The notes under the pieces were generated by a model. It made no database searches and was not told where the DNA came from. It was given only the letters and a program-made list of their open reading frames with translations. Position numbers and translations under genes: made by a program. Source: an uncultured Solirubrobacteraceae bacterium (GTDB taxonomy: Bacteria > Actinomycetota > Thermoleophilia > Solirubrobacterales > Solirubrobacteraceae). Taken from it: DNA of 48,074 nt. The stretch is taken from NCBI GenBank assembly GCA_902806175.1, contig CADCVQ010000149.1, positions 1 through 48,074 of the forward strand, given 5' to 3'. Below, piece after piece: positions 9,803-11,574 of the stretch (the stretch's first letter is position 1; each line of letters opens with the position of its first letter).

Positions 9803-9900
9803 CATGGTGTCGCGGCTCCTTCGGGTCGAGCGGTTGAAGTCAGGCCGCAAGCGTCGGCGACACACGCGGAGGTCGCGAAGAATTCGACTTAGATCAAATC
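9803..9900 (-). repeat. Duplicated leader with truncated gene start (copy A)
   Basis: This roughly 98-base stretch aligns with the leader of the SnoaL-like gene (11479-11574), about three quarters identical by eye with only a few single-base gaps. Both copies keep the same 18-bp inverted repeat, the block TCGCGGCTCCT containing the ribosome site (AGGAG on the minus strand) and an ATG. After the ATG at 9805 the protein begins MHNLIALSLAVPGTPLHGLN, then loses coding character. Copy A is therefore the start of a lost paralogue. The region 9478-9800 holds no gene I can support. Confidence 0.6.
9882..9899. promoter_or_regulatory. 18-bp inverted repeat, candidate operator (copy A)
   Basis: ATTCGA-CTTAGA-TCAAAT is an imperfect palindrome with 6-bp arms and a 6-bp centre. 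It lies 14 bases before the start of the DUF5937-ArsR gene and at the head of the duplicated leader on the other strand. The same site with the same spacing (ATTTGA-N6-TCGAAT) heads the SnoaL-like gene. It is the natural candidate for the binding site of that regulator. Confidence 0.55.
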
Positions 9901-9913
9901 CTCGTGCGACCCG

Positions 9914-10924
9914 ATGCTGACGCCGGAGGTAGCGGTCGCCGCCGCGGTAGCGTCCGCCGAGGTGATCCGCTTCGTCTTCTCCGTCGAGGATCTTGCGCGC
10001 ACGCGGTTTGCCATCTCGCCGATGTGGGAGGCGGTCCGCTCGCTCGTGGCCCTGCAGGATCCCTCGAGCGCCGCGCTGCACCTGCCGTGGCTGCGGTCGC
10101 TCAGCGGTCGGCTCGGCGGACTCGCGCTCGAGCGGGTCGTCGCGCTCATCCCGCCGCGCGGCTACATGCCCGACTTTCTGACACCGCCGCCCAGCGGCCC
10201 GCTGGGCCGCATCGACGATGACCTCGACGCGCTGCGCCGCACGCCCCTCAAGCAGATCCGCCACGACATCGAGCTGTTCGGCGCCCAACACCGCCGGTCG
10301 CGGATATCCGATGCGTGGCTTGAGCATCCGCGTCGCGAGGTGCGCCGCCTCGCCGACGCCGTCGAGGCCTTCTGGAACCGGGGGATCGAGCCAGCCTGGC
10401 CGCGGATCCAGGCCTTCCTCGACGCCGACATCGCACACCGCGCGCGCCGGCTCGCGCAGGGCGGTCCGGTTGGGCTGTTCGCCGACTTGCATCCGGGGGT
10501 CGCCTGGATCGCCGACCACCTCGATGTCGTCAGCGACCGCGAGGCGACGATCGAGCTCGACGGCCGGGGCCTGGTCCTCCTGCCGTCGGCCTTTCAGTGG
10601 GCGCGCCCGGCGACGATCGAGCTCGCCCCCTGGCAGCCGACCCTCATCTATCCAGCCCGCGGCATCGCCACCCTCTGGGACGAGGGCACCGGCGCATCCG
10701 GCGGCCTCGTGCGCCTGCTCGGCGCCACACGCGCCTCGATCCTCGTCGCCCTCGCCGCGCCGCGCTCGACCGCCGACATCGCACAGCTGTTGTCGATCAG
10801 CCCCGCAGGCGCCTCACACCACCTCACGACGCTGCGCGACGCCGGCTTGGCCAGCGCGCGCCGCGAGGGGCGCTCCGTCCTGTACGTACGAACTGCCACC
10901 GGCGACGCGCTCGCCCGGGGATGA
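9914..10924 (+). CDS. DUF5937 / ArsR-type winged-helix regulator
   Basis: A 336-residue regulator. Residues from about 14 to 170 match the DUF5937 pattern (EVIRFVFSVEDLARTRFAIS, then MWEAVRSLVALQDPSSAALH). Residues 250-336 form an ArsR-like winged helix (LGATRASILVALAAPRSTAD, then AQLLSISPAGASHHLTTLRD). Actinobacterial members are presumed ligand-responsive transcription factors. No ribosome site is seen; the start lies 14 bases after the candidate operator, so the mRNA may be nearly leaderless and autoregulated. It sits between two copies of the same leader, pointing to the SnoaL-like gene as its target. Confidence 0.85.
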   Translation: MLTPEVAVAAAVASAEVIRFVFSVEDLARTRFAISPMWEAVRSLVALQDPSSAALHLPWLRSLSGRLGGLALERVVALIPPRGYMPDFLTPPPSGPLGRIDDDLDALRRTPLKQIRHDIELFGAQHRRSRISDAWLEHPRREVRRLADAVEAFWNRGIEPAWPRIQAFLDADIAHRARRLAQGGPVGLFADLHPGVAWIADHLDVVSDREATIELDGRGLVLLPSAFQWARPATIELAPWQPTLIYPARGIATLWDEGTGASGGLVRLLGATRASILVALAAPRSTADIAQLLSISPAGASHHLTTLRDAGLASARREGRSVLYVRTATGDALARG

Positions 10925-11073
10925 ACGAGCGCGCCGCGCGACAAGCCCGCAGGCGGCCGGTCAACTGCTCCGGACGGGTCCACTAGACGTCCGCTTTGGA
11001 GGGGCGAGCCTCAGCATGGGAAGCGCGCGTCGCGGCTGCCGAAGCTCATTCCTGGCCGGTGCCGCCCGCCACC

Positions 11074-11481
11074 TCACTGCGCCGAGGCGACTCGCGTGTT
11101 GTGGAAGGCGGCGATCTGATGCTCGTCGCCGTCACGGGCGAGGACGATGCTTGCCAGCGCCTGGGCCTCGCCTGCCATCGGGCCCGCCGGGACACTGAGG
11201 TTCGCGCGAACGTGGGCGAGGATGACGCGGTCGTCGAGCTCGCGCGCGTCGAGCACCGTGAAGCGAACGGTGCTGCCCGCGTAGATCGTGTCGAAGATCT
11301 GCTGGTGGCCGATGGCGATCGCCTCGCCGGAGTGCAGCTCGCCGCGGATCGTGACGAAGTCGGCGTCGGGTGCGAACGGGGCGCCGAAGGCCGCCCCGTC
11401 GGCGGCATTCCAGGCGTCTTCCAGGCGCTTGATCAGGGTTTCGGCAGCGGTCTTGGGATCGATGTCTGCGAGGGTGTTCAT
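11074..11481 (-). CDS. SnoaL-like / SgcJ-EcaC family protein (DUF4440 type)
   Basis: A 135-residue protein of the NTF2-like cone fold. It begins MNTLADIDPKTAAETLIKRL, with EDAWNAADGAAFGAPFAPDA next, the usual family opening, and later IGHQQIFDTIYAGSTVRFTV. SgcJ/EcaC proteins are called oxidoreductases but their reactions are mostly unknown. The ATG has AGGAG 8 bases upstream. The leader carries an 18-bp palindrome also found in front of the DUF5937-ArsR regulator 1.6 kb away, so the two are probably one regulon. The genes converge. Confidence 0.85.
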   Translation of the reverse strand: MNTLADIDPKTAAETLIKRLEDAWNAADGAAFGAPFAPDADFVTIRGELHSGEAIAIGHQQIFDTIYAGSTVRFTVLDARELDDRVILAHVRANLSVPAGPMAGEAQALASIVLARDGDEHQIAAFHNTRVASAQ

Positions 11482-11556
11482 TGTTCGCGGCTCCTGCGAT
11501 TGAGCGGTTGACGTTCACGGCACCAGCGTGGGCGAGATGCGCAGAGATCGCGAACG

Positions 11557-11574
11557 ATTTGACGTCCATCGAAT
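11557..11574. promoter_or_regulatory. 18-bp inverted repeat, candidate operator (copy B)
   Basis: ATTTGA-CGTCCA-TCGAAT lies 75 bases upstream of the SnoaL-like start codon on the minus strand. It matches copy A at 9882-9899 in arms and spacing (consensus ATTyGA-N6-TCrAAT). The leader between it and the start codon is also conserved between copies. Probably bound by the DUF5937-ArsR protein. Confidence 0.55.

Follow-up and report, generated by a model that had tools for sequence, protein, structure and literature searches.

Two candidate operators of a DUF5937-ArsR regulator, and a recognition-helix residue that co-varies with the operator half-site in Actinomycetota

Introduction

SmtB and AzuR are members of the ArsR/SmtB family with 12-2-12 operators of the form TGAACA-N2-TGTTCA (PMC8790569). 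The DUF5937-ArsR regulator described in this study shares with them an ArsR-type winged helix, local targets and a palindromic site predicted to overlap the promoter or the transcription start. Unlike SmtB and AzuR, it carries its HTH at the C-terminus behind a DUF5937 domain of 240 residues, it lacks cysteine, and its site follows (A/T)TTYRn-N6-nYRAA(T/A) instead. RexT of Nostoc, also an ArsR-SmtB protein, likewise has an ATTCG...CGAAT palindrome (ATTCG-N15-CGAAT; PMC8960804), but the spacer is 15 rather than about 8 as found here, and RexT, a redox sensor, lacks DUF5937. The M. tuberculosis protein Rv2034 is alike in being an autorepressing actinobacterial ArsR protein with one palindrome at its own start; that palindrome, CCGTAAGT-N4, differs in arms and spacing, however, and Rv2034 has no DUF5937 (PMC3338718). 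A literature search returned neither a paper on what DUF5937 does nor a described binding site for the family, in agreement with the original prediction for this locus, which had noted that DUF5937 regulators lack a well-described site.

Results

In the window, that is, the whole stretch of 48,074 nucleotides that was analysed, two palindromes matched ATTyGA-N6-TCrAAT exactly, both at the places where they had been predicted. Candidate operator A (ATTCGACTTAGATCAAAT, 9882-9899, readable on either strand) lies 14 bp upstream of the ATG of the regulator gene, and candidate operator B (ATTTGACGTCCATCGAAT, 11557-11574, likewise without strand) lies upstream of a SnoaL-like gene. Pattern searches of the whole genome (4,124,996 bases in 183 contigs) found only these two exact copies; the exact palindrome is confined, in 4.12 Mb, to this locus. 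When one mismatch was allowed, one additional site was found in the genome, and the backwards control pattern also gave one match; the additional site, C123:2910, was dropped as an operator with a motif score of 5.7 bits. Moreover, the looser family consensus ATTYR-N8-YRAAT had two exact matches in the genome, again operators A and B, against none for its control pattern. Two matches with two mismatches allowed are unsurprising in a 48-kb window alone, and the significance of the palindromes was therefore judged from their exactness, their genome-wide count and their occurrence in relatives. A position weight matrix trained on Actinomycetes only ranked operator A first in the window (19.5 bits) and operator B second (18.4 bits), followed by a site of 11.4 bits; the leave-one-out score of operator A was 22.5 bits. 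A third site in the window, at 9576-9599, was rejected: its score, which varied with the training set from 11.4 to 14.4 bits, did not stand out from those of shuffled windows, and its arms were not of the GA type.

The regulator gene (9914-10924, plus strand) encodes a protein of 336 amino acids with an N-terminal DUF5937 domain and a C-terminal ArsR-type winged helix. The protein passed the gathering score of PF19361 (DUF5937; 39.7 bits vs 27.1) and the cut-offs of HTH_5 (28.9 vs 22) and HTH_20 (35.8 vs 27), and 63 of 67 aligned relatives matched PF19361 at E<=0.001. Since the relatives align from residue 17, translation may start at the GTG at 9962 rather than at the ATG at 9914. The winged helix matched the folds of CadC, CzrA and ZitR with Z of about 11, and the regulator did not reach the cut-off of the metalloregulator model NF033788 (48.5 bits vs 55); no cysteine was present among its 336 residues. 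In the AlphaFold2 model, the recognition helix comprises residues 297-309 (10802-10840, plus strand; pLDDT 94), with the codon of H302 (10817-10819) in the middle of the helix. Fold searches with the whole model returned matches to the HTH only, and the DUF5937 domain (9956-10693, plus strand), which contains a helix of 51 residues, was for this reason modelled alone (pLDDT 95.7). No solved structure matched this domain in Foldseek (best E 1.9), and VIA-align gave no Z>=2 among 324 chains; this negative result falls short of proving a new fold. The DUF5937 domain is presumed to be the sensor.

The motif was then sought in 71 non-redundant DUF5937-ArsR loci, gathered by contig and whole-genome searches from Thermoleophilia and other Actinomycetota, including Streptomyces and Kitasatospora. 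The original prediction had proposed that the palindrome is the operator of the regulator and should stand upstream of orthologous regulators, and the relatives spoke in its favour. A site of at least 14 bits was found by leave-one-out scoring in 54 of the 71 loci, against one of 47 control loci, which included ArsR-type genes without DUF5937; the lone control match (L053, 18.3 bits) lay within an apparent P-type ATPase gene and was set aside. The spacing was equally distinct: within the 150 bp before the regulator, ATTY-Nk-RAAT occurred in 15 of 71 loci at k=10, and every other k between 0 and 30 gave two loci at most. In addition, a palindromic motif model gained 343 in log-likelihood, compared with 35-54 in ten shuffles. 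The palindrome itself was upheld, but the predicted sequence ATTyGA-N6-TCrAAT proved to be only a local form of a family-wide site, (A/T)TTYRn-N6-nYRAA(T/A), that stands before the regulator or its operon. The exact 18-mer was absent from the first-fetched DUF5937 loci of other genomes, and a search for the exact GA form would have missed most relatives.

In 17 of the 71 loci no site of at least 14 bits was present. Several loci without a site directly at the regulator had it ahead of the operon's first gene, namely L004 (of Solirubrobacter soli) and L087, in which a VOC gene precedes the DUF5937 gene, and L131, in which a DUF4440 gene does so. As L131 is a distant relative, a SnoaL-like gene under a DUF5937-ArsR regulator is not peculiar to the present genome. 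Furthermore, four loci (L112, L117, L133, L147) had a second site downstream of the regulator gene, an arrangement comparable to the two-site layout of the window. Other partners of the regulators were MFS exporters, aldo/keto reductases, cupins and a questin-oxidase-like protein.

Some members of the family departed from the common pattern. In a subgroup of five loci (L029, L089, L107, L115, L125), ATGTAGC-N5-GCTACAT or a close form replaced the common palindrome at an equal distance from the start. In L019 and L091 (= L026), the position of the leaderless ATG of the relatives is occupied by ATC directly after an in-frame stop, so that translation starts either at ATC or further downstream. 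Four DUF5937 matches (L027, L096, L102, L103) were found in the Solirubrobacteraceae genome G035; one of these is only a fragment, interrupted by two stops.

Co-variation between protein and site was computed for the 54 loci by comparing each of about 300 protein columns with each half-site base, using sequence-weighted mutual information against permutations. Residue 302 was the top column for both base 6 (z 8.9; next column 5.6) and base 7 (z 11.7; next 7.7). Histidine at this position went with GA in 13 of 14 half-sites, glutamine with AG in 32 of 48, alanine, glutamate or serine mostly with GG (22 of 28), and arginine with GC in all eight. The protein of the window has H302, and its half-sites read GA in four of four. 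In a tree computed from the DUF5937 domain by itself, H302 arose about three times, with GA every time; independent-pair tests on the tree were all concordant in direction, with too few pairs to attain p 0.05. In later-fetched loci the code held for glutamine and failed for one alanine and one arginine case, and it is therefore regarded as a tendency and not a law. The conservation of the site, its spacing, its rarity in the genome and its co-variation with residue 302 are computed results.

The predicted target gene (11074-11481, minus strand) encodes a SnoaL-like/DUF4440 protein of 135 amino acids that exceeded the cut-offs of TIGR02246 (68.5 bits vs 33.95) and DUF4440 (41.3 vs 25.2). Divergent from it is an APH(6)/hydroxyurea kinase-like gene (11784-12734, plus strand; PF04655, 147.5 bits), whose start is 210 bp from operator B in the common intergenic region; control of this gene by operator B is only a possibility. 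Homologues of the SnoaL-like protein in genomes G376 (66% identity) and G021 (47%) had no DUF5937-type operator, and G376 contained no DUF5937 match at E<=1e-25. The closest homologue, that of G376 (L171), adjoins an apparent divergent TetR gene with the palindrome TTGACACGTGTCAAGTGT and has no DUF5937 site, which looks like the same type of enzyme under another regulator. In G002 (L022/L032), a genome of the same genus, there was no SnoaL homologue, and all that is left of the regulator is a fragment spanning residues 219-333 with about 84% identity; the DUF5937 locus seems to be decaying there. On the other side of the regulator, in the region 8631-9455, a second ArsR gene (9099-9455, minus strand) with the palindrome CATATAGGCATATG just upstream (9464-9477) is followed by an AHSA1/SRPBCC-like gene, which occupies two frames (ORFs 8792-9169 and 8631-9011) and looks frameshifted by mutation or assembly.

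As had been predicted, two leaders on the minus strand are homologous, with roughly three quarters of their positions identical. Leader A (9806-9881) lies beside the regulator, its palindrome being 14 bp from the regulator ATG, and leader B (11482-11556) heads the SnoaL-like gene. With palindrome and ATG excluded, their minus strands gave a local alignment score of 72, whereas 500 shuffles averaged 18.9 (sd 3.7) and did not exceed 39, and both kept the predicted ribosome site, AGGAG, a few bases upstream of the ATG. Upstream of the palindromes no similarity between the two copies was found (score 32 vs 28.8). No recognisable gene lies behind leader A. The original prediction had taken copy A for the trace of a lost paralogue of the SnoaL-like gene, and leader A does retain AGGAG, ATG and nine of the next 12 bases, as the head of a decayed second SnoaL-like gene, formerly under the same control, might do. 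The homology ends a few bases past the ATG, however, the 200 bases on the two coding sides scoring 49 against 39.5 +/- 5.8 (maximum 62), and the paralogue was for this reason left unsupported. Moreover, the sequence after the ATG of copy A had no significant SnoaL similarity as DNA or protein and no tblastn match, and the stretch behind the leader (9456-9805, minus strand) carried no coding signature and, unlike the SnoaL-like gene, no rise in third-position GC. A decayed gene is consequently considered unlikely, and partial duplication of an operator-leader segment is as good an account of leader A.

The leaders might instead be a relic of an older operator-VOC promoter from an ancestor of the VOC-DUF5937 locus L087, the nearest relative. 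Leader B scored 42 against the operator-VOC start of this locus (shuffles 20.5 +/- 3.7, maximum 37), the best of 110 flanks. Leader A scored only 30, the other VOC-DUF5937 locus (L004) gave no match, and unrelated 100-bp pieces of the window reached up to 41 against L087; such an origin appears quite unlikely, and since random pieces score so high, the resemblance of leader B is kept as a weak hint. Leader B was also considered as a widespread element, and this was rejected: the BLAST matches of relatives to its TCAACCGCTC part fall within protein-coding genes, which we take to be chiefly hydroxymethylglutaryl-CoA lyase-like, and are due to chance.

Discussion

In the present study, the two palindromes were found to be very probably the operators of the DUF5937-ArsR protein, which would act as an autoregulated local repressor of a two-promoter regulon consisting of its own gene and the SnoaL/DUF4440 gene. 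The self-contained regulon that had been proposed is consistent with the two promoters and with the restriction of the exact palindrome to them. Judged from the sequence comparisons, the palindrome is almost certainly the docking site of this protein. A dimer would read both arms through its winged-helix domains; H302 of each recognition helix would select GA, bases 6-7 of each ATTYGA arm, and the outer TT/AA would be read alike throughout the family. Bound at site A, the regulator would repress its own gene, and at site B the SnoaL-like (DUF4440) gene. A small molecule, rather than a cysteine-bound metal, presumably binds the DUF5937 domain and would cause release of the DNA; DNA binding, dimerisation, repression and ligand release are what we infer for the protein. 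Because operator A stands 14 bp before the regulator ATG on the strand opposite to leader A, it can serve both directions. Leader copy A itself probably arose when the operator-leader segment was duplicated.

Many relatives have a site that includes a TANNNT -10 element and extends as far as the start codon. Of 48 sites, 14 carry TANNNT at one fixed place on the strand of the regulator and one does so on the other strand; the -10 element of the window is weak. The presence of TANNNT within part of the sites could indicate that the palindrome is merely a conserved promoter feature beside DUF5937 genes, and the other ArsR genes nearby (9099-9455) could suggest that it belongs to another regulator. 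A promoter element, however, would not be palindromic, whereas here both arms are equally well conserved and the spacing is fixed; bases 6-7 track residue 302 of the DUF5937-ArsR protein itself, and the control ArsR loci lack the site. Both explanations are thus highly improbable. A DUF5937-ArsR protein bound to such a site would lie over the -10 element as well as the transcription start, and repression by covering the promoter is the most likely mode of action. Sequence cannot tell the direction of control, and Rv2034, an ArsR protein, reportedly regulates dosR positively (PMC3338718), so that activation of the SnoaL gene by the regulator might be envisaged. An activator placed over the -10 element, and frequently over the start codon too, as the sites of the relatives are, would nevertheless hinder transcription, and activation is very unlikely; repression of its own gene and of the neighbour is the simplest reading.

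The usual partners of the regulators (MFS exporters, aldo/keto reductases, VOC, cupin and DUF4440 proteins) suggest that the family takes part in the handling of small molecules, perhaps antibiotics or xenobiotics. There is about an even chance that these proteins constitute an undescribed class of small-molecule-responsive local repressors in Actinomycetota, with a sensor fold so far absent from solved structures and an operator predictable from one residue of the recognition helix; if this is true, DUF5937-ArsR regulons become readable from genomes. In one step the DUF5937 regulator family gains a predicted binding site together with a list of targets and a rule for its specificity. Furthermore, with the site in hand each member can be tested in vitro and, when a ligand has been identified, could be used as a sensor.

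A literature search found no recognition code for ArsR proteins with DUF5937. Recognition codes have been described for the LacI (PMC2978694) and MerR (PMC5045206) families, and the DUF5937-ArsR proteins are alike in that operator bases co-vary with recognition-helix residues across a set of local regulators. In comparison with these known systems, we rate the DUF5937-ArsR protein as an ArsR-type local repressor with a new class of operator and an uncharacterised sensor.
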